From Candidatus Omnitrophota bacterium (GTDB lineage: Bacteria; Omnitrophota; Gorgyraeia; Gygaellales; Profunditerraquicolaceae), in the NCBI GenBank assembly GCA_028712375.1, contig JAQTQG010000012.1:1-40001 (forward strand): a DNA stretch of 40,001 bases, in the 5' to 3' direction. The translations under genes and the position numbers were made by a program. The notes beneath the pieces are model-generated. The model had not been told where the DNA came from, did not search any database, and saw only the letters and a program-made list of their open reading frames with translations. Shown one piece after another: positions 20,653-31,061 of the stretch (its first letter is position 1; every line of letters begins with the position of its first letter).

Positions 20653-21430
20653 AGTATTCTCCTTTGTAAACTATCCTGACTGCGCCTTCTAACCAGACTT
20701 TTTTAAACCCGCCGCTTTCTTTCTGGAAAGAAATTTTCAAGATCTCACCGCCTTGCGTCTGCACTTTAATTAAACCGTCTAAATTATTTTTTAAAGCAAA
20801 AATTAAGGCCGACGCCGTGCTTCCCGTGCCGCAGGCTAAAGTCTCATCCTCGACCCCTCTTTCATAAGTACGCACGCGAATAGTATTTTCCCCGATCTCC
20901 TCGACAAAATTAACATTTGTCCCGCGCGGGGAGAATGCTTTGTGATTTCTTATGCTGTAGCCGATATGTTTTACGTTAATCCCTTCGATCCCGTTCACAA
21001 AAATGACTGCGTGCGGAACACCGGTATTAATAAAATTTACTTTCATCAACCTGTCGCTAGTCATTAAAGGAATATCTAATTTTATATCCTTGGGGGTAGT
21101 GAGCTGGACTTTTACCTGGTTACCACGGACTTGCGTATCGATAACTCCGGCCAAAGTAAGCAAGCGGGCTTTGGGCTTGCCGTTAAAATAAGCAGCACAA
21201 CGGGCGCCATTACCGCACATCTCCGCTTCAGAGCCATCCGCATTAAAAATGCGCATCTTAAGGTCCGCGCCTTTGCATTTACTCAAAAGAAGCACTCCGT
21301 CAGCCCCCGCGCCGAATTTACGGTCGCATAAAGCCCTGACCAATTCCGGCAGGTTCCCGGAGAGTTTATCCGTAATTACCACAAAATCATTGCCGCTGCC
21401 CACCATTTTCGTAAATTTAAGTTTTTTCAT
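20645..21430 (-). CDS. dapF: diaminopimelate epimerase
   Basis: KMVGSGNDFVVI, NADGSEAEMCGNGARCAA, ETLACGTGSTASA. Confidence 0.97.
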   Translation of the reverse strand: MKKLKFTKMVGSGNDFVVITDKLSGNLPELVRALCDRKFGAGADGVLLLSKCKGADLKMRIFNADGSEAEMCGNGARCAAYFNGKPKARLLTLAGVIDTQVRGNQVKVQLTTPKDIKLDIPLMTSDRLMKVNFINTGVPHAVIFVNGIEGINVKHIGYSIRNHKAFSPRGTNVNFVEEIGENTIRVRTYERGVEDETLACGTGSTASALIFALKNNLDGLIKVQTQGGEILKISFQKESGGFKKVWLEGAVRIVYKGEYYV

Positions 21431-21500
21431 CCCGCACCTTCATTGTATTCTAATATTCCCGCTTCTTCTTTTTAAATAAAATATTTAGAAGGTGCGGGAT
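21429..21500. repeat. three-arm palindromic gene-junction element, copy 1 (lysA/dapF)
   Basis: ATCCCGCACCTTC (21429-21441) ... ATTCCCGCTTCTTC (21455-21468) ... GAAGGTGCGGGAT (21488-21500); outer arms are 13-bp perfect inverted repeats. Confidence 0.85.
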
Positions 21501-22729
21501 TCATTTCTTATTAAATCCTGCAGTGTTTCTCTTTTTCTAATCACTGCCGCTTTATTTCCAGAAACCATCACTTCGGCAGCACGCAGGCGCGAATTATAAT
21601 TGCTGGACATACTAAACCCGTATGCCCCGGCGCTCATTACCGCCAGATAATCCCCTTCTTTAACTTTGGCAATTAAGCGCTCTTTAGCTAAAAAATCCCC
21701 GCTCTCGCAGATCGGCCCGACCACATCGGCTTTTTGTGCCCCGGAAACTTTAGTTAAAGGCCAGATATTATGGTAAGCAGAATACAGTGCCGGACGAATC
21801 AAATCGTTCATTCCGCCATCCACAATAATAAATTTTTTCTTCGGCGTATTTTTAATGTAGAGCACTTTGACCACCAGAATACCGGCATTGCCCACAATAA
21901 ACCTGCCCGGCTCCATAATTATTTTAAGCCCGGTACGTTTAAGCAGCGGAAGAATCTGGCCGGCGTAGATCTGCGCGGTTTGCGGGTCTTCATGATCATA
22001 AATAATCCCCAGCCCCCCTCCGATATTTAGATATTCCAGGCTAATGCCCTGGTCTTTCAGGCGCCGGATAAAATAAGAGACTTTTTTAATCGCCTCCACA
22101 AACGGCTCACTTTTAGTAATCTGCGAACCGATATGGATATGTAAACCGCAGATTTTCAGGTTTTTAAAATTTTTGCGCAAGAGCAATATTTTATAAGCGC
22201 TTACCAGGTCAATCCCAAACTTATTCGTAATCTTCCCGGTAGAGATATATTTATGCGTCTTGGCCTCCACATCGGGATTAATCCGGATGGCAACGCGGGT
22301 TATTTTATTTAAACTTTTGGCAATGCGGTTAATATTTTTTAACTCCGCTAAAGATTCCACATTAAAAAATAATATCCCTTTGCTGATGGCCGCAGCAATT
22401 TCCTGGTCAGTTTTACCCACTGAGGCGTAAACTATTTTTTGCGCCGGGCAGCCGGCTTTTTGGGCGCGAAACAGTTCCCCTCCGGAAACAATATCCAACC
22501 CCGCCCCTTTGGCAATCAAAGCCTTTAAAATGGAAAGATTAGAATTGGCTTTCACGGAATAACAAATCAGCGGATTAATTTCGCTAAATGCGGATTTTAA
22601 TTTCAGGTAGTGGTCAGTAAGCGTGCGATAGCTGTAGACATAAAGCGGGGTGCCGAACTTTTTTGCCAAATCTTCTACTTTGACATCTTCGCAGTAGAAT
22701 TTATTATTCTTATATTTAAAATCGTGCAT
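21485..22729 (-). CDS. lysA: diaminopimelate decarboxylase
   Basis: PLYVYSYRTL, CYSVKANSNLSIL, HIHIGSQI, YLNIGGGLGI, EPGRFIVGNAG, CESGDFLAK, SAGAYGFSMSSNYNSR. Confidence 0.97.
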   Translation of the reverse strand: MHDFKYKNNKFYCEDVKVEDLAKKFGTPLYVYSYRTLTDHYLKLKSAFSEINPLICYSVKANSNLSILKALIAKGAGLDIVSGGELFRAQKAGCPAQKIVYASVGKTDQEIAAAISKGILFFNVESLAELKNINRIAKSLNKITRVAIRINPDVEAKTHKYISTGKITNKFGIDLVSAYKILLLRKNFKNLKICGLHIHIGSQITKSEPFVEAIKKVSYFIRRLKDQGISLEYLNIGGGLGIIYDHEDPQTAQIYAGQILPLLKRTGLKIIMEPGRFIVGNAGILVVKVLYIKNTPKKKFIIVDGGMNDLIRPALYSAYHNIWPLTKVSGAQKADVVGPICESGDFLAKERLIAKVKEGDYLAVMSAGAYGFSMSSNYNSRLRAAEVMVSGNKAAVIRKRETLQDLIRNESRTF

Positions 22730-22746
22730 TTATATTATTTTCCTTG

Positions 22747-22828
22747 GCGGGTCCTGTCTGCCAATCCACCTCGCCGTGCTCACTTTTCGTTGCGCGCGGC
22801 AAGGGCTCTGTCTTGGCAGCCACCCGCT
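22747..22828 (-). repeat. AGCGGGT...ACCCGC intergenic hairpin element, copy 1 (inverted orientation)
   Basis: Plus strand GCGGGTCCTGTCTGCCAATCC...CTTGGCAGCCACCCGCT; reads AGCGGGTGGC...AGGACCCGC on the minus strand. Confidence 0.75.
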
Positions 22829-22830
22829 AA

Positions 22831-24213
22831 TTACCTTTTAATAGAAAGCTTAGACTCAACTGATTTTTTAGGATCAAATAATTTAATTATTTCTTCTTTA
22901 TTTAAAGAATCAGAAAACTCTTTTATTTTTTCCCCTGACATCTCTTTAATCTTCTTACCGCTAGTAATAGAATATTTAATAAGCTCTCCAATAATAGTGT
23001 GCGCTTGCTTGAAAGGAACTTTTCTATCAACTAAATAATAGACTAGATCCGTTGCATACAGAGACTCATCTTTTAAGTATTCTTCAATCTTAGGTTCATT
23101 GAATTTAAGTGTCTTAATTAGTCCTGCCAAAACCCTTAATTCCATTGAAACTATTTCGAAGGAATTAAATAGTGGTTCCTTATCTAACTGCATATCTCTG
23201 TTATATGTCAAAGGTAAACCTTTCATCATCGTCAAGACACTTACTAGATTTCCGTTTAATCTTCCAGCATAACCTCTAACTAATTCTAATACATCAGGAT
23301 TTTTCTTTTGCGGCATAAGCGAACTCCCGGTACAAAAAGCTTCATCTATTTCCACAAAATCAAATTCCTGAGTAGACCAAATTATTAAATCTTCCGACAG
23401 TCTCGACAGATGCATTGCAACAATTGCTAATGCACTAATAATCTCAATAACGAAATCCCTGTCGCTTACTGCATCTAAAGAATTAGTAGTTGATTCAACT
23501 TTAAAGTCTTTCATAAATTTGCTTGTTTCTTCCCAATCCGGATTTTTTTGTAATTCTTCAATAATTTTATTCACGTTCTTACTATACTCTTCAGAACTAA
23601 TAGGAGTTCCTGCTAAAGCTCCCGCACCCATTGTTATTTTCATATTAATAGAGATATATTCTAATCTTGCTGCATCTCTTAATAACATTTTTTTGTATGT
23701 ACCCAAATAATCTTTCAAATAAACAGGCTGGGCATGCTGCATATGAGTGAAACCCGGCATAATAATACCATCATTTTCAACTAATAACTTATCTATGGAT
23801 AGTACTAATTCTTCAATATTGGTTTGTAAGTTTTTCATAGTATTTTTACAATACATCTTAGTTGCAAATACAACCTGATCATTTCTTGATCTGGCCATAT
23901 GCAATTTTAAAGCTACTTCCCCAAGCTTATTTTCCAATATATTTTGAATATTAGTATGAATATCTTCGCAATTAGGATCTTCTTTAAAAACTCCCTCCTG
24001 AATCTCTTTACCAATTTTCAGCAACTCATCTGCAAGACTGGTGGATTCAGCCTGAGTTAAATATCTAGATTGTGTCAAAATATCCACATGAAACAAAGAA
24101 CCAAATACATCATACCAAGCAAGCTTATGATCGAATTGTATTGATCTTGTAAACTTTTCAACTAATGGGTCTGTTTCCTTATCAAATCTTCCGCCCCACA
24201 ACTTTTTCGCCAT
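22831..24213 (-). CDS. argH: argininosuccinate lyase
   Basis: KKLWGGRFDKETDPLVEKFTRSI, HMARSRNDQV, TGSSLMPQKKNPDVLELVRG. Confidence 0.97.
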   Translation of the reverse strand: MAKKLWGGRFDKETDPLVEKFTRSIQFDHKLAWYDVFGSLFHVDILTQSRYLTQAESTSLADELLKIGKEIQEGVFKEDPNCEDIHTNIQNILENKLGEVALKLHMARSRNDQVVFATKMYCKNTMKNLQTNIEELVLSIDKLLVENDGIIMPGFTHMQHAQPVYLKDYLGTYKKMLLRDAARLEYISINMKITMGAGALAGTPISSEEYSKNVNKIIEELQKNPDWEETSKFMKDFKVESTTNSLDAVSDRDFVIEIISALAIVAMHLSRLSEDLIIWSTQEFDFVEIDEAFCTGSSLMPQKKNPDVLELVRGYAGRLNGNLVSVLTMMKGLPLTYNRDMQLDKEPLFNSFEIVSMELRVLAGLIKTLKFNEPKIEEYLKDESLYATDLVYYLVDRKVPFKQAHTIIGELIKYSITSGKKIKEMSGEKIKEFSDSLNKEEIIKLFDPKKSVESKLSIKR

Positions 24214-24250
24214 TTTTACTCCCTATGGATTATTATATTAATTACTATTT

Positions 24251-24350
24251 AAGCGGGTGGCTTGGGTGTTTTTCGCCACCTGGCGAACACCCGCGCAACT
24301 CCAATTAGCGCGGGGTGCGACCACACAACAAACCCTACAGGACCCGCTTA
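24251..24350 (+). repeat. AGCGGGT...ACCCGCT intergenic hairpin element, copy 2
   Basis: AAGCGGGTGGCTTGGGTG...CTACAGGACCCGCTT between argG and argH. Confidence 0.75.
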
Positions 24351-24355
24351 ACAAA

Positions 24356-25537
24356 TTATCTTTTATAAGGCATACCCCAAAGTTTGATAAATCCTTCTGC
24401 CAGCTTCTGATCAAACTTATCTTCTTTACCGTAAGTACTTAATTCTTTTTTATAGAGCGAATGCTTTGATTTTCTCCCTACGGCAACACAAGTTCCTTTT
24501 GACAATCTCAACTTAATAGTGCCGCTGACTAATTTCTGGGTCTTCGCCACAAAACCATCCAAAGCATCCTTTAAAGCGGAAAACCACAACCCGTAATAAA
24601 CTAACTCCGCATACTTCAGGCTGACAATTTCCTTAAAATGCGCCAGCTCCCGGTCCAACACAAGAGCTTCTAATTCCTTATGCGCAGTGTACAAAATAGT
24701 TCCTGCCGGAGCTTCATAAATTTCCCGGGACTTAATCCCCACCAGCCTATTCTCCACCATATCACTTCTGCCTACGCCAAACTGCCCGCCAACCTCATTA
24801 AGGTGCATAATCAAATCTTTGGCCTTATATGCTTTACCGTCAACCTTCACCGGCACGCCATTAGCAAAAGTTATTTCAATATACCGGGGGTAGCTGGCGG
24901 ATTGTGTTGATCCCTTGGTAATCATATAAGCGTCTTCCGGAGGCTCCTGCTCTAAATTTTCCAGAATCCCTGCTTCAATACTTATTCCCCAAAGATTACG
25001 GTCAATACTGTAAGGCTTCTTTTTGGTAACATCGATCGGAATATTATGCTTTAAAGCATATTCAATTTCTTCTTCACGGGATTTAAATTCCCACTCCCGG
25101 ACCGGAGCAAGAATCTCCAACTTAGGATCCAGTATGCCTACGGCAACTTCCAGCCTAACCTGGTCATTGCCTTTGCCGGTGCAACCGTGCGCAACGGCAA
25201 CTGCTTTTTCTTTATGCGCAATCTGCACTAAATATTTAGCAATTAACGGCCGCCCGAGCGCCGTAGCCAAAAGGTATTTTCCTTCATATATAGCGTTGGC
25301 TTTTAAAGCCGGAATAATAAAATCGTTAATAAATTCTTCCTGCAGGTCACGGATATACACTTTTGAAGCTCCGGCGGCCAAAGCCCGCTTTTCGATCGCC
25401 TCGAAATCTTCACCCTGGCCTAAACCCTGTCCCAGGTCCGCTACAAAACAAATTACATCATAGCCTCTCTCCCTAAGCCAACGCACAATACAAGAGGTAT
25501 CTAACCCGCCTGAATACGCCAACACTACCTTTTTCAT
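24356..25537 (-). CDS. argG: argininosuccinate synthase
   Basis: VVLAYSGGLDTSCIVRWL, HGCTGKGNDQVRLE, GVGRSDMVENRLVGIKSREIYEAPAGTIL. Confidence 0.98.
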   Translation of the reverse strand: MKKVVLAYSGGLDTSCIVRWLRERGYDVICFVADLGQGLGQGEDFEAIEKRALAAGASKVYIRDLQEEFINDFIIPALKANAIYEGKYLLATALGRPLIAKYLVQIAHKEKAVAVAHGCTGKGNDQVRLEVAVGILDPKLEILAPVREWEFKSREEEIEYALKHNIPIDVTKKKPYSIDRNLWGISIEAGILENLEQEPPEDAYMITKGSTQSASYPRYIEITFANGVPVKVDGKAYKAKDLIMHLNEVGGQFGVGRSDMVENRLVGIKSREIYEAPAGTILYTAHKELEALVLDRELAHFKEIVSLKYAELVYYGLWFSALKDALDGFVAKTQKLVSGTIKLRLSKGTCVAVGRKSKHSLYKKELSTYGKEDKFDQKLAEGFIKLWGMPYKR

Positions 25538-25572
25538 TATCCCTCTCCTAATTTAAATAAAATTTATTTAGA

Positions 25573-25641
25573 TTAGCGGGTGGCTTGGATGTTTTCGCAG
25601 CGCGTCAGCGCAAGAAAATATCCAAGCCAGGCCCCGCTAAT
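25573..25641 (+). repeat. AGCGGGT...CCCCGCT intergenic hairpin element, copy 3
   Basis: TTAGCGGGTGGCTTGGATGTTTTC...GAAAATATCCAAGCCAGGCCCCGCTAA; near-continuous long stem. Confidence 0.8.
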
Positions 25642-26590
25642 CCTTACTTAACAATTTTATTAAAATCGCCTTCTGCACGTGCATCCTGTTTTCCGCCTGA
25701 TCAAACACCACGGAATTCTTGCTATCCATCATTTCATCCGTGATCTCCTCGCCCCGATGCGCAGGCAAACAATGCATCAGGATAACCCCCGTTGCTGCGT
25801 TAGTTAAAAGTCTAGCATTAATCTGAAAATCTTTAAAGATAATTTTTCTTTTACCGATTTCTTCTTCCTGCCCCATACTCGCCCAGACATCCGTATAAAC
25901 AACGTTAGCGCCATTGACCGCGCTGAGCGGATCTTGAGTAATCCTGATCTGGCTGCCGGTTTCTTTAGCTGCCTCTTTGGCGTCTTTAACCACTTGGCCG
26001 TCGGGGGCATAACCATCGGGAGTAGCCACAGCAATATTCATTCCGGTTTTAGCTGCCGCAAACAATAATGAATTACAAACATTATTCCCGTCGCCGACAT
26101 AAGCCAGCGTTAAGCCTTTTAACTTGCTGCCTAATTTATGCGAAGCCGGATTCAGGCGCGCGAATTTTTCACCGATTGTAAAAAGGTCGGCTAAAGCCTG
26201 GCAAGGATGGGAAAAATCGGATAAACCGTTAATTACCGGCACTCCGGCGGCCGCGGCCATCTCCAGGCAATTTTTATGCTCAAAAGTCCTTAAAACAATC
26301 CCGTCGACGTAACGCGAGATAGTCTTAGCCACATCTTTAACTGCTTCCCTAACCCCCAGATTAATCTCACCGGGAGACAGATAAATAGAATTACCCCCCA
26401 GCTGATACATGCCCACTTCAAAAGAAACGCGTGTTCTGTTGGAAGGCTTCTGAAAAATTAAGGCCAGGGTTTTACCCGCCAGAACTTTATTAAACTTAGA
26501 CTTGTTTCTTTTTAATTTAACCGCCAGGTCAAACATCTCTTCAATTTCTTTAGTGGTTAAATCTTTAATCGAAAGTAAATCTTTTTTCAT
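25637..26590 (-). CDS. argF: ornithine carbamoyltransferase
   Basis: FQKPSNRTRVSFEVGM, VINGLSDFSHPCQALADL, YVGDGNNVCNSLL, MHCLPAHRGEEITDE. Confidence 0.97.
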   Translation of the reverse strand: MKKDLLSIKDLTTKEIEEMFDLAVKLKRNKSKFNKVLAGKTLALIFQKPSNRTRVSFEVGMYQLGGNSIYLSPGEINLGVREAVKDVAKTISRYVDGIVLRTFEHKNCLEMAAAAGVPVINGLSDFSHPCQALADLFTIGEKFARLNPASHKLGSKLKGLTLAYVGDGNNVCNSLLFAAAKTGMNIAVATPDGYAPDGQVVKDAKEAAKETGSQIRITQDPLSAVNGANVVYTDVWASMGQEEEIGKRKIIFKDFQINARLLTNAATGVILMHCLPAHRGEEITDEMMDSKNSVVFDQAENRMHVQKAILIKLLSKD

Positions 26591-26606
26591 ATTTACGCTC
26601 CTTACC

Positions 26607-27791
26607 TCAAGCCGAATACGCCGCCTTTAATACGCCCTTTAATATACTGATTGCTTTATCAATTTCTTTTTTGGCCACATTCAAAGCCGGCATTAACCTT
26701 AAAACATTATCATGCGTGCAATTAATCAATAAGCCCCGGCTGGCGGCTTCCTGCACAATCTGTTTGCCTTCGACATTTAGTTCCAACCCGTACATCAAGC
26801 CTATCCCCCTTATTTCTTTAACTACCGGGCAGGAATTTTTAAGAAAAGTTAATTTTTCAAAAAGATATTTACCCATATTTTGGCAGTTATGCAGAATCTT
26901 TTCTTTCTGCATCGCGTTGAGCGCCCCTAAAGCCGCCCGGCAAACTACCGGCCCGCCTCCAAAAGTAGAAGCATGCATTCCCGGAGCCAGAATATCGCTT
27001 AATTCTTTTTTCGCGATCATTGCGCCCATGGGTAATCCTCCGGCCAAAGCTTTTGCCAAAGTCATTATATCCGGGATAATCCCGTAATTTTGATAAGCAA
27101 ACATCTTACCGGTGCGGCCAAAACCGGTTTGCACCTCGTCAATGATTAAAAGCAAATTCTGCTCGTTGCATATTTTTCTCAAGCCCGAAATAAAATCTTT
27201 ATCCGCAACATTAACCCCGCCTTCGCCTTGAACCAGCTCCAACATAATCGCGACAGTCTTTCCGCTAATTGCCTGTTTAACCGCCGACAAATCATTAAAT
27301 TTAACCTGTTTAAAACCTTCCGGTATCGGCTCGAAACCCGCCTGGTATTTTTTCTGCCCGGTAGCCGCCAAAGCCGCCATCGTCCGGCCGTGAAAAGCAT
27401 TCTCAAAAGTAATAATTTCATACCGGCCGGCACCGAATTTACGCGCTAATTTAATCGCCGCTTCATTAGCTTCTGCCCCGGAATTAGCAAAAAATACTTT
27501 CCCCGGAAAGCTTAAATTAATAAGCTCCTTAGCTAATTTTGCCTGAAAAGGATGGTAATAGTTATTCGGCACAAAAATCAACTTACCGATCTGATCCCGC
27601 ACCCCCTGCATCACCTTGGGATGGCAATGCCCTAAACCGCCCACTCCCCAACCCGGGAAAAAATCTAAATAAGCCTTACCTTGAATATCCCAAAGCCAAG
27701 AGCCCTTGCCTTTAACAAAGATAAACGGAACCTTGTTGTAAGTAGGCATAATACATTCTTTATATGCCTGAAATATCTCTTCTACTTTCAT
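26607..27791 (-). CDS. argD: acetylornithine aminotransferase
   Basis: FFANSGAEANEAAIKLARKF, ITFENAFHGRTMAALAATGQ, LLIIDEVQTGFGRTGKMFAYQ, LAKALAGGLPMGAMI. Confidence 0.95.
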   Translation of the reverse strand: MKVEEIFQAYKECIMPTYNKVPFIFVKGKGSWLWDIQGKAYLDFFPGWGVGGLGHCHPKVMQGVRDQIGKLIFVPNNYYHPFQAKLAKELINLSFPGKVFFANSGAEANEAAIKLARKFGAGRYEIITFENAFHGRTMAALAATGQKKYQAGFEPIPEGFKQVKFNDLSAVKQAISGKTVAIMLELVQGEGGVNVADKDFISGLRKICNEQNLLLIIDEVQTGFGRTGKMFAYQNYGIIPDIMTLAKALAGGLPMGAMIAKKELSDILAPGMHASTFGGGPVVCRAALGALNAMQKEKILHNCQNMGKYLFEKLTFLKNSCPVVKEIRGIGLMYGLELNVEGKQIVQEAASRGLLINCTHDNVLRLMPALNVAKKEIDKAISILKGVLKAAYSA

Positions 27792-27864
27792 CCCGCACCT
27801 TCTTTTTTATTCAATTCACTGGATCCTGCACCTTCAATAGTTAAATATTGAGAAGGTGCGGGAT
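27790..27864. repeat. three-arm palindromic gene-junction element, copy 2 (argB/argD)
   Basis: ATCCCGCACCTTC (27790-27802), near-identical ATCCTGCACCTTC (27823-27835), and GAAGGTGCGGGAT (27852-27864). Confidence 0.9.
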
Positions 27865-28725
27865 TCATTGTATAATTTCAGTCCCGATCCCCTGGTCCGT
27901 AAAAATCTCTAAAAGCAAACCATGCGGAGTGCGCGCATCAATAATATGCGTCTTCTTTACCCCGCCGCCTAAAGCTTCCACGCAAGCCATCACCTTAGGA
28001 ATCATCCCTTCCTGGATAATCTTGTTCGCAATTAAGCCATTAGCTTCACTAACGGTAAGCGTTGAAATGAACGAATGCACGTCGTCCGCATTACGCATAA
28101 TCCCCTTGACATTAGTTAACAGCACAAACTTCTCCGCCTGCATATTCGCGGCAATACTGGCAGCTACTTCATCGGCATTTACATTATAGGTTTTTTTATC
28201 TTTTCCGCGGCCCATCGGCAGGACCACTACCACTTTATCTTTTTTCAATTCATCGGTTAACAACTGGGTATTAATGGCTTTAATCTGCCCGACTAAACCG
28301 ATATCCAGGCCACCCTTGATCTTTTTCTTCTCCACCTGAATTAAATCGTCAGTCTTACCGTTTAAACCAACGGCCTTTGCCCCTAATTCCGTAAGCTCCT
28401 TTACGATCAATTCATTTAATACAAGCAGCTCTTCTTCGACCAATTTTAAAGTTTCTTCATCGGTAACCCGCATCCCTTCGACAAACTCCGTCTTCTTACC
28501 GGTTGAGCGCATCCGCTCGCTGATATTCGGGCCGCCGCCGTGCACCAAAATAGTGCGTATTCCCATAAAATTTAAAAAGACAATATCCTCTAAAACACTA
28601 TTACGGATTTTTTCATCCCCCAGGATGCTTCCACCGTATTTAATAATGATTACTTTTTTATGGAATCTTTTAATATAGGGTAACGCCTCAATCAAAACAT
28701 CTGCTTTTCTAATTGCCTCTTCCAT
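27865..28725 (-). CDS. argB: acetylglutamate kinase
   Basis: VIIIKYGGSIL, ILVHGGGPNIS, VGLNGKTDDLI, NVNADEVAASIAANM, LLTNVKGIM, GMIPKVMACVEALGGGVKKTHIIDAR; ATG at 28725 preferred over GTG at 28749. Confidence 0.96.
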   Translation of the reverse strand: MEEAIRKADVLIEALPYIKRFHKKVIIIKYGGSILGDEKIRNSVLEDIVFLNFMGIRTILVHGGGPNISERMRSTGKKTEFVEGMRVTDEETLKLVEEELLVLNELIVKELTELGAKAVGLNGKTDDLIQVEKKKIKGGLDIGLVGQIKAINTQLLTDELKKDKVVVVLPMGRGKDKKTYNVNADEVAASIAANMQAEKFVLLTNVKGIMRNADDVHSFISTLTVSEANGLIANKIIQEGMIPKVMACVEALGGGVKKTHIIDARTPHGLLLEIFTDQGIGTEIIQ

Positions 28726-28735
28726 GAGTCCTTTC

Positions 28736-28797
28736 TTGTGTACGTACACAACCGCCGCAGAGGCGGCGTACCCGCCGCTCCTCTAGGGCGGGGTAAC
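28736..28797. repeat. GC-rich composite palindrome region upstream of argB
   Basis: 16-nt perfect palindrome TTGTGTACGTACACAA (28736-28751), then CCGCC-GCAGA-GGCGG and CCCGCC...GGCGGGG stems. Confidence 0.75.
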
Positions 28798-28817
28798 TTT
28801 CCTAAACTTCGAATACC

Positions 28818-29954
28818 TTAATTGTACTCCGCGTTTATTTTTATATATTCCGGCGTAAGGTCGCTGGTATAAACTGTGCATTTACTCTTGCCCCGGGATA
28901 AACTTACCGTAAGCTTTACCTGTTTGTCCTTTAAAGAACCCAGCTTTATTTTTAACTGCTCTTCCTTAATGTTAAAACCGCTTGCTCCGACGGCCGCCGC
29001 GACCCTGCCAAAATTAGGATTTTCTCCAAAAACCGCGGTCTTAAAAAGCATGGAATTGGCAATCCCTAAAGCAATACTTTTGGCCTCTTGCGTATTTTTA
29101 GCCTGGCAAACATCAATCTGAATAAACTTAGTTGCCCCTTCGGCATCAGCTACGACCATCTTGGCCAGGTCCAAACAAACAGCTTCCAAAGCCTTTGAAA
29201 AATTTTCCAAGCTCTCCCCGGCAGAGATAACTTTATTGCCGGCAGCCGCATTCGCCAACACCAAAACCGTATCATTAGTACTCATACACCCATCAACGGA
29301 AATACAATTAAAAGATTTATCCACTGCCGCCGAGAGCGCTTTATTCAAAGCAGGCTGGGTTACCGCCGCGTCCGTCATAATAAAACACAACATGGTGGCC
29401 ATATTCGGAGCAATCATCCCGGCCCCTTTAGCAATCGCGCAAATGCGCACCAGCTTGCCATCTACCTTTAAGCTGCGGCTGACTTCTTTAGCAAAGGTAT
29501 CCGTGGTCATAATAGCAGTTTCCGCCCGGTGAATGCCCGCGCTGGATAACCCGGCAACCAACTGCGGAATAGCTTGTTTGATTTTAGCCAGATCCAACCG
29601 CTTGCCGATAATCCCGGTAGAATTTACCAATACGCTATGTTTGGCGATCTTTAATTCCCGGGCAAGATAATCCGCCGATGCTTGGGCATCTTTAACCCCG
29701 GCTTTACCGGTAAAACAGTTGGCATTTCCGCTATTAATTAAAACCGCTTGAAATTTTTTGGCGGATTTTAGATGTTTTTTACAAACAATCAAAGGAGCAG
29801 CAATAATACTGCTGGTGGTAAACTTAGCAGAAGCTAATGCCGCAGGAGATGAATAAATTAAAGCCAAATCCGGCTTACCGGATCTTTTTAATCCGCAGGA
29901 TAACCCGTTAGCTTTAAAACCTAAAGGTAGAATTAAATTTTTATTGTTTTTCAT
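28818..29954 (-). CDS. argJ: bifunctional ornithine acetyltransferase/N-acetylglutamate synthase
   Basis: KGAGMIAPNMATMLCFIMTDA (autocleavage Thr), FNCISVDGCMSTNDTVLVLAN, NPNFGRVAAAVGASG. Confidence 0.97.
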   Translation of the reverse strand: MKNNKNLILPLGFKANGLSCGLKRSGKPDLALIYSSPAALASAKFTTSSIIAAPLIVCKKHLKSAKKFQAVLINSGNANCFTGKAGVKDAQASADYLARELKIAKHSVLVNSTGIIGKRLDLAKIKQAIPQLVAGLSSAGIHRAETAIMTTDTFAKEVSRSLKVDGKLVRICAIAKGAGMIAPNMATMLCFIMTDAAVTQPALNKALSAAVDKSFNCISVDGCMSTNDTVLVLANAAAGNKVISAGESLENFSKALEAVCLDLAKMVVADAEGATKFIQIDVCQAKNTQEAKSIALGIANSMLFKTAVFGENPNFGRVAAAVGASGFNIKEEQLKIKLGSLKDKQVKLTVSLSRGKSKCTVYTSDLTPEYIKINAEYN

Positions 29955-30026
29955 CCCGCGCCTTCCACTTATTAATCATTTTTACCCCCGCCGCCTCTTC
30001 GCATAAATACCAAGAAAGCGTGGGAT
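29953..30026. repeat. three-arm palindromic gene-junction element, copy 3 (argC/argJ, diverged)
   Basis: ATCCCGCGCCTTC (29953-29965) ... ACCCCCGCCGCCTCTTC (29984-30000) ... GAAAGCGTGGGAT (30014-30026). Confidence 0.7.
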
Positions 30027-31061
30027 TCATAATAAACCGGTAGCCTCCGGCAGCTTATACATAATATTCATATTCTGCACTGCCTGGGAAGAAGCACCCT
30101 TTAATAAATTATCAATAGCTCCGATAACAATAATCTTATTCCCGAAGTCTTTGACGCCGATATCACAAAAATTGGTTTTGGCAACATCCTTGATCCGAGG
30201 GAAAACCCCATCCGGCTTTATCCGGACAAAAGGTTCAGTTTTATAAAAATTTTTATATAACTCTACTAAATTTTTTACCTTAAGTTTATAACCGCAAGCT
30301 TTCTTTAAATAAACTGTCGCTAAAATTCCCCGCTCAATAGGCAGAAGATGCGGCACAAAAGTAACCTGCACCTTTTTACCGGAGACCTTTGAAAGCACCT
30401 GGTCTATCTCCGGGGCATGCTGATGCGTATTAACTTTATACGCCCTAAAATCCCCCTGAATCTCGGAGAACAAATACTCGTTGGCTAATTTTTTACCAGC
30501 GCCGCTCACCCCGCTTTTAGCATCAATAATAATTGAATCCGTATCCACTAAATCCAGCGCCAATAACGGAGCAATCGATAAAATCGCACACGTCGGATAA
30601 CAACCCGGATTGGCAATCAACGCAGCGGATTTTATTTTTGCCCGGTTTAATTCAGGAAGGCCATAAACCGCTGTTTTTAAATTATTTTTATCCTGATGAG
30701 TTGCCTTATAGAGATTTTCATAAACCGAGGTGTTTTTAAGCCGGTAATCCGCGCTTAGGTCAATAACCTTCTTCCCCAGGCTCAAAAGCTTCGGCACAAA
30801 ATTCATCGAGACGGTATGCGGCAGGGCCAGAAAAATTAAATCACAATCTTTTTTAATCTCCGGCCAATCCGGTTTTTTACAAATTAAATCCAGCCGGTTT
30901 TTGAATTTTGGGAACACTTCTGAAATAACCTGCTCGCCGGGCAAGCTTTTACCGCTATTATAAAGATGGGAGATCCTGACATTAGGATGGTTAAGCAGGA
31001 GTTCAATTAAAACTTCCCCGGTGTGCCCGGTTGCTCCGATTATCCCCACATTAATCAACAT
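30027..31061 (-). CDS. argC: N-acetyl-gamma-glutamyl-phosphate reductase
   Basis: VGIIGATGHTGEVLIELL, VIDLSADYRL, YGLPELNRAKI, ANPGCYPTCAIL, HQHAPEI. Confidence 0.97.
   Translation of the reverse strand: MLINVGIIGATGHTGEVLIELLLNHPNVRISHLYNSGKSLPGEQVISEVFPKFKNRLDLICKKPDWPEIKKDCDLIFLALPHTVSMNFVPKLLSLGKKVIDLSADYRLKNTSVYENLYKATHQDKNNLKTAVYGLPELNRAKIKSAALIANPGCYPTCAILSIAPLLALDLVDTDSIIIDAKSGVSGAGKKLANEYLFSEIQGDFRAYKVNTHQHAPEIDQVLSKVSGKKVQVTFVPHLLPIERGILATVYLKKACGYKLKVKNLVELYKNFYKTEPFVRIKPDGVFPRIKDVAKTNFCDIGVKDFGNKIIVIGAIDNLLKGASSQAVQNMNIMYKLPEATGLL

Follow-up and report, generated by a model that had tools for sequence, protein, structure and literature searches.

A palindromic and probably mobile element at the start codons of Omnitrophota operons, with a copy at the argB/argD junction

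The junction between argB and argD in a 40,001-nt stretch of an Omnitrophota genome (the window) is occupied by one copy of what is probably a small, non-autonomous mobile element of ~73 nt with 13-bp inverted terminal arms, which lands on RTGA starts, duplicates ~4 bp (TGAA) and would preserve the coupling of the operon it enters. Its usual targets are starts that an upstream stop codon overlaps or shortly precedes. Read from the sequences of the copies, the last base of the element is shown to begin the new start codon and its right arm to give an AAGG that is the putative Shine-Dalgarno sequence (SD). The putative old ATG is shown in the same way to be kept at the left end, where in many copies it begins a small reading frame with its stop, a TGA, over the new start.

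All features at the junction lie on the minus strand. The argB gene (27865..28749) has orthologues in the congeners and, by homology, its product presumably belongs to the N-acetylglutamate kinase family; its TGA stop (27867-27865) directly abuts arm 1, AUCCCGCACCUUC. A repeat search identified an inverted repeat of 14 nt with 100% complementarity (27790-27803 / 27851-27864), consisting of arm 1, the left arm (AUCCCGCACCUUCU, 27851..27864), and arm 3, the right arm (AGAAGGUGCGGGAU, 27790..27803). The third arm or 'decoy', GAAGGUGCAGGAU, is an internal right-arm-like motif at 27823..27835. Arm 3 (GAAGGUGCGGGAU, 27802-27790) contains the AAGG at 27801-27798, and its final two bases are the AU of the argD AUG (27791-27789). 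The argD gene (26607..27791) has 69-91% identical matches in the congeners, and we take its product to be of the acetylornithine aminotransferase family by homology. The fold of a 96-nt RNA spanning the junction reached -31.8 kcal/mol compared with -14.6 ± 2.9 kcal/mol for shuffled sequences (z -5.93, 0/200), so the palindrome is not a product of chance. The first-pass annotation had described a three-arm palindrome at this place, and its sequence and coordinates proved correct, with arms that are perfect over 14 bp.

The element itself, Y(T)-CCCGCACCTTC ... GAAGGTGCGGG-R(A), comprises 73 nt (27791..27863), as delimited by alignment with 50 copies from the same genome and by empty sites in congeners. 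Its final base is the A of the argD ATG, and the argD start codon is thus provided by the element. The left target copy, ATGAA (27864..27868), holds both the argB stop and the old argD start (ATG, 27868-27866), so that the argB TGA is part of the duplicated ATGA target. The right target copy, TGAA (27787..27790), forms together with the last A of the element the ATGAA of the present argD start. These assignments draw on the sequence, on a target duplication test and on the empty sites.

The palindrome belongs to a dispersed family. The motif GAAGGTGCGGGAT (≤1 mismatch) had 64 matches in the 1.65-Mb source genome, whereas the reversed control had 1. A covariance model was built on 22 copies and the copies were read in the stretches around the matches, which resulted in ~51 distinct copies in the source genome, with an element of about 71-73 nt and YCCCGCACCTTC/GAAGGTGCGGGR as arms; the weakest of the 52 placed matches (C37:5025, E 0.096) was left out of this count. 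Three copies are located within the window. In addition to the argB/argD copy, a second one occupies the argC/argJ junction (29951..30030, minus strand) and a third one precedes dapF (21427..21504, minus strand), each with a copy of ATGA on both flanks; the open reading frame upstream of the third copy now stops within its left arm. Two copies in the source genome are identical across 70 nt and lie at different genes. The AAGG was conserved in 98-100% of the copies, other positions drift and the spacer is unconserved. A search of 84,980 species for exact matches to both arms returned 96 stretches and, among those listed, all were from Omnitrophota except for two contigs of one MAG. Exact two-arm matches were present in 17 of 384 Omnitrophota genomes, mostly of the same family as the source genome, and within the genus the copy number ranged from zero to dozens (matches counted on both strands). 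The element is patchy among related genomes and nearly restricted to one family. The exceptional MAG is labelled Phycisphaerae (L105, L106) and was obtained in a lake project that also yielded several Omnitrophota MAGs; its copies possibly reflect misbinning or lateral transfer.

The placement of the copies is closely tied to start codons. In the direction of the gene, RTG directly follows the right end GAAGGTGCGGG. In arm-based searches, the right end of 49 of the 51 source-genome copies coincided with the RTG that begins a real gene or ran into a tandem copy, with one further weak copy set aside in reaching this number; three of the copies run into a tandem copy and one is inverted (C34:11772). 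By homology, we take the genes begun by the RTG of the element to include argD, argJ, dapF, purA, alaS, ilvN, radA and prs, as well as those for ribosomal proteins L29, L18, L36, L9 and others. In other genomes an NTG was found at the right end of 102/107 copies and at the mirror end of 1/107, in a collection whose search pattern itself required RTGA. The restriction to starts is not explained simply by an element that stays out of genes, because 13 intergenic RTGAR sites in the window are non-starts, compared with 16 RTGAR sites that are starts. The upstream stop codon lay within the left DTGA in 21 of 50 source-genome copies and overlapped it by one or two bases in 5 more. Tandem pairs were observed at three loci (L014:992-1166, L071 and L069), in which the second copy occupies the RTGAA created by the first.

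The bases that flank the copies point to target duplication. The left flank mostly reads ATGAA, and it reads ATGAG at RTGAG genes and ATGGA at RTGGA genes. Bases 4 and 5 of the left and right targets agreed beyond permutation (p 0.003 and <5e-5, respectively); these and the other permutation p-values given here are optimistic because the sequences are related. The outermost bases of the element form a Y/R pair (T-A 39, C-G 87, T-G 12 and C-A 15; odds ratio 19, p 6e-14), and G-type copies lead to GTG starts. On the simplest reading of these sequences, an element Y...R would have been inserted into A|TGAA with duplication of TGAA, and the start codon would now begin with the element's own last base. 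The insertion reading was confirmed by empty sites that contain a single ATGA. At argC/argJ, the site is empty in 12 congeners, in which argC ends in ..TTATTATGA or ..TTACTATGA with an ATGA overlapping argJ, and likewise in the closest relative (G026), whose argC and argB are 90% and 96% identical, respectively. In eight congeners argB and argD overlap as a single ATGA (..ATAAAATGAAG..) and there is no element; in most congeners the two genes merely overlap or abut, without a hairpin. Filled sites were found at argC/argJ in G011, G014 and G025, at argB/argD in G025 and at argF in G014, and the arm changes of the argB/argD copy in G025 are uncompensated. A mobile palindrome had been offered earlier as the alternative to regulation, and the ~50 dispersed copies, the target duplication and the empty congener sites all support it.

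Other sequences were also observed at and near this junction. In G026, G014 and G004 (L032, L050 and L039) other, unrelated sequences, AT-rich or palindromic, take up this place, which gives the junction the look of an insertion hot spot. The argD genes of G014, G006, G017 and G026 (L050, L055, L056 and L032) carry an in-frame 16-residue repeat (ASTKLSANGEQSRTIS-like) at one loop, with up to three in tandem, which is absent from argD in the Omnitrophota source genome.

The consequences of the element for translation were investigated by RNA folding. At equilibrium, arm 1 of the argB/argD RNA was predicted to pair with arm 3 with a probability of 1.0 and with the decoy with a probability of 0.0, and the AAGG of arm 3 was unpaired with a probability of ~0.001. 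The proposed sequestration of the argD SD and start codon by arm 1 and arm 3 is thus supported by the prediction. Across the family, the AAGG was predicted to be hidden in 122 of 143 copies, with a median probability of being unpaired of 0.0008 compared with 0.51 at ordinary starts in the window. When a ribosome footprint was placed over the left ATG, the predicted probability for the AAGG rose to 0.71; the SD thus appears hidden without the footprint and exposed with it. It had also been suggested that a ribosome terminating at the argB stop covers arm 1 and so couples the two genes, and in silico this is supported, as a footprint at the stop or left ATG is predicted to free the SD. Translational coupling has been modeled both as RNA unfolding and as -4 re-initiation (reviewed in PMC12548453), and the predicted behavior of the element fits these models. 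Arm pairing across copies amounted to 12.18 of 13 pairs compared with 11.88 after permutation, and arm 1 covaried with arm 3 (p 0.006). G-U changes outnumbered A-C changes by 32 to 11 where the SD constrains the right arm and by 25 to 19 elsewhere. Selection at the RNA level is unproven, because the G-U excess is not clear outside the part of the right arm that the SD constrains.

The old left ATG opens a frame of the form ATG AAY CCC GCA CCT TCT ... GAA GGT GCG GGR TGA, the stop of which overlaps the new start. At argB/argD this bridging mini-ORF (27788..27868, minus strand) has 26 codons, MNPAPSQYLTIEGAGSSELNKKEGAG followed by the stop; it opens in the argB ATGA and closes in the argD ATGA, where its TGA overlaps the argD ATG. 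The length of the element was 2 mod 3, which keeps the frame, in 88 of 154 copies. A complete bridging frame was present in 12 of 47 source-genome copies and 39 of 97 other copies (51/144), compared with 4.0 and 8.4 after spacer shuffling; in the remaining two-thirds, approximately, it is broken by early stops or frameshifts. A protein-coding role of the mini-ORF was rejected: the peptide is unconserved and variation at the three codon positions was 0.38/0.37/0.40, without an excess at the third. Because the codon positions drift equally, what counts seems to be that the frame stays open, whatever peptide it encodes; alternatively, the frame is left over from the founder.

Taken together with the folding, the start-codon element may act as follows. 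Its hairpin would hide the SD from free ribosomes, and a ribosome that finishes the upstream gene or reads the mini-ORF would open the left arm and then re-initiate. In this manner the translational coupling of the operon would survive the insertion, and this survival would be the reason that the element is tolerated in essential operons. A further and tentative step, to which we give slightly less than an even chance, is that the family has evolved into a self-contained coupling adaptor: the hairpin would lock its own SD and the bridging frame would unlock it, so that downstream translation stays dependent on the upstream gene, the strength of coupling is set and ATG is often replaced by GTG. 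If this is true, coupling is kept and tuned by every insertion into a pair of overlapping genes. The dozens of operons with and without the inserted coupling device constitute a natural experiment.

The explanation as a whole competes with the view that the family is a purely selfish MITE-like element, in which the hairpin and mini-ORF have no selected effect and the placement reflects target preference and survival. The copy number that ranges from zero to dozens among congeners, the identical copies at two loci, the unconserved mini-ORF peptide and the decayed arms in G025 are all consistent with this view. However, frame-keeping and the absence of stops exceed the shuffled expectation, and the AAGG is 98-100% conserved where other positions drift; the founding sequence may already have had both. 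Overall, we regard pure selfishness as unlikely, though a serious alternative.

Mobilization as a REP/BIME-type palindrome by the Y1 (RAYT) transposases of the genus is improbable. The element is a palindrome, and Y1_Tnp genes occur in 27/27 congeners, but the copy number did not correlate with the Y1 count (rho -0.31, p 0.12), whereas that of an unrelated GGGACGGTTCT palindrome did (rho 0.72, p 0.02, ten genomes). Furthermore, no convincing arm was present near either of the two Y1 genes of the source genome, and the copies show target duplication. REPs tagged by GTAG/CGTC have been covered elsewhere (PMC3733652). The start-codon element shares with REP/BIME sequences and their RAYTs the appearance of dispersed extragenic hairpins, and it differs from them in its location at start codons, its target duplication and the missing Y1 correlation. 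Among the loci that were read, no transposase gene flanked by element arms was seen. In G014, a GGGACGGTTCT...AGAACCGTCCC palindrome, which has ~230 matches per strand in that genome, is nested within the copy of the start-codon element upstream of argJ (L094). A 422-residue open frame at G000:C28:11753-12097 (L029) combines a Y1 transposase domain with a long C-terminal extension and a possible membrane segment.

The first-pass annotation had favored a two-state attenuator or translational switch of the arginine operon, specific to this locus, in which arm 1 chooses between the decoy and arm 3. Apart from a single mismatch the decoy is complementary to arm 1, and as the RNA is transcribed their hairpin can be the first to form (-20.5 kcal/mol). 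Internal motifs resembling the right arm (≤3 mismatches) were found in 17/50 source-genome copies and 44/103 other copies (61/153), compared with 0.9 and 2.4 expected, mostly 31-35 nt upstream of arm 3; left-arm-like internal motifs showed no such enrichment across copies. The decoy is a real family feature, and because it recurs across the family its presence at argB/argD is not a local accident. However, the best fold that leaves arm 3 free was weaker (-20.5 compared with -31.8 kcal/mol), the decoy pairing had an equilibrium probability of 0.0, and covariation of arm 1 with the decoy was absent across copies (p 0.11). The same element also lies at dozens of unrelated genes, and comparison of related argB/argD junctions revealed that most congeners lack the arms. 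A regulated two-state switch is not supported, the lack of the arms at related junctions refutes one that is conserved at this locus, and we consider such a regulator highly improbable. Two other origins of the decoy were rejected: it is not an in-frame peptide repeat (EGAG), since the spacing between it and arm 3 favors none of the three frames (25/18/18), and it is not a recent duplicate of the right arm of the same copy, since the likeness was no better than in permuted pairs (p 0.86).

A conserved, riboswitch-like cis-regulatory RNA common to a regulon is highly improbable: the same structure does precede many genes, but no Rfam 15 family matched over 21200-30300 (one sub-threshold match elsewhere, E 0.64), nothing unites the target genes in function (ribosomal proteins, alaS, dapF, purA and arg genes), the spacer is unconserved and the presence is patchy. 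Annotators should be aware that an intergenic hairpin which looks conserved in an Omnitrophota operon can be a mobile element and not a regulatory RNA.

To our knowledge, elements that target start codons have otherwise been described only as the mycobacterial interspersed repetitive units (MIRUs), the original description of which is reportedly that of Supply et al. in 1997. MIRUs are apparently mobile, insert at start codons and contain an internal ORF that is coupled with -4 spacing (PMC12548453). By description, the Omnitrophota element resembles them in being small, apparently mobile and inserted at start codons in DTGA sites; a frame that bridges the neighboring ORFs in the manner of MIRUs is complete in 51 of 144 copies and broken in the others. 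It differs in its 13-bp palindromic arms, which mask the SD together with the first bases of the start codon and include the SD within the arm; in addition, many copies lack an intact bridging frame, and no variable tandem arrays beyond pairs were seen. Membership of the MIRU family is not claimed, because the likeness is one of description, the host phylum differs and the SD-sequestering palindromic arms are an extra feature. The element is best classified as a new, palindromic variant of start-codon-inserting elements. As a second case of start-codon targeting, in a distant uncultured phylum, it suggests that mobile DNA generally finds a safe harbor where stop and start codons overlap.

With prokaryotic MITEs the element shares a short length, terminal inverted repeats, target-site duplication, a high copy number and the lack of a transposase; it differs in targeting start codons and in supplying the SD and start base. 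A review of MITEs (ERIC, Correia/NEMIS and RUP; PMC10969869) does not refer to start or stop codons or to the Shine-Dalgarno sequence. The Rickettsia palindromic elements (RPEs; PMC10969869) are likewise palindromic, dispersed and in possession of an open frame. Many RPEs, however, are in-frame insertions within genes and are translated as a segment of the host protein, whereas the Omnitrophota element lies between genes and its frame closes at the next start. An extended left flank, AAGGTGCAAAAGGGGCAAAC, was common to two copies (L011 near 1020-1048 and L020 near 1180-1215), which suggests a longer composite form of the element.
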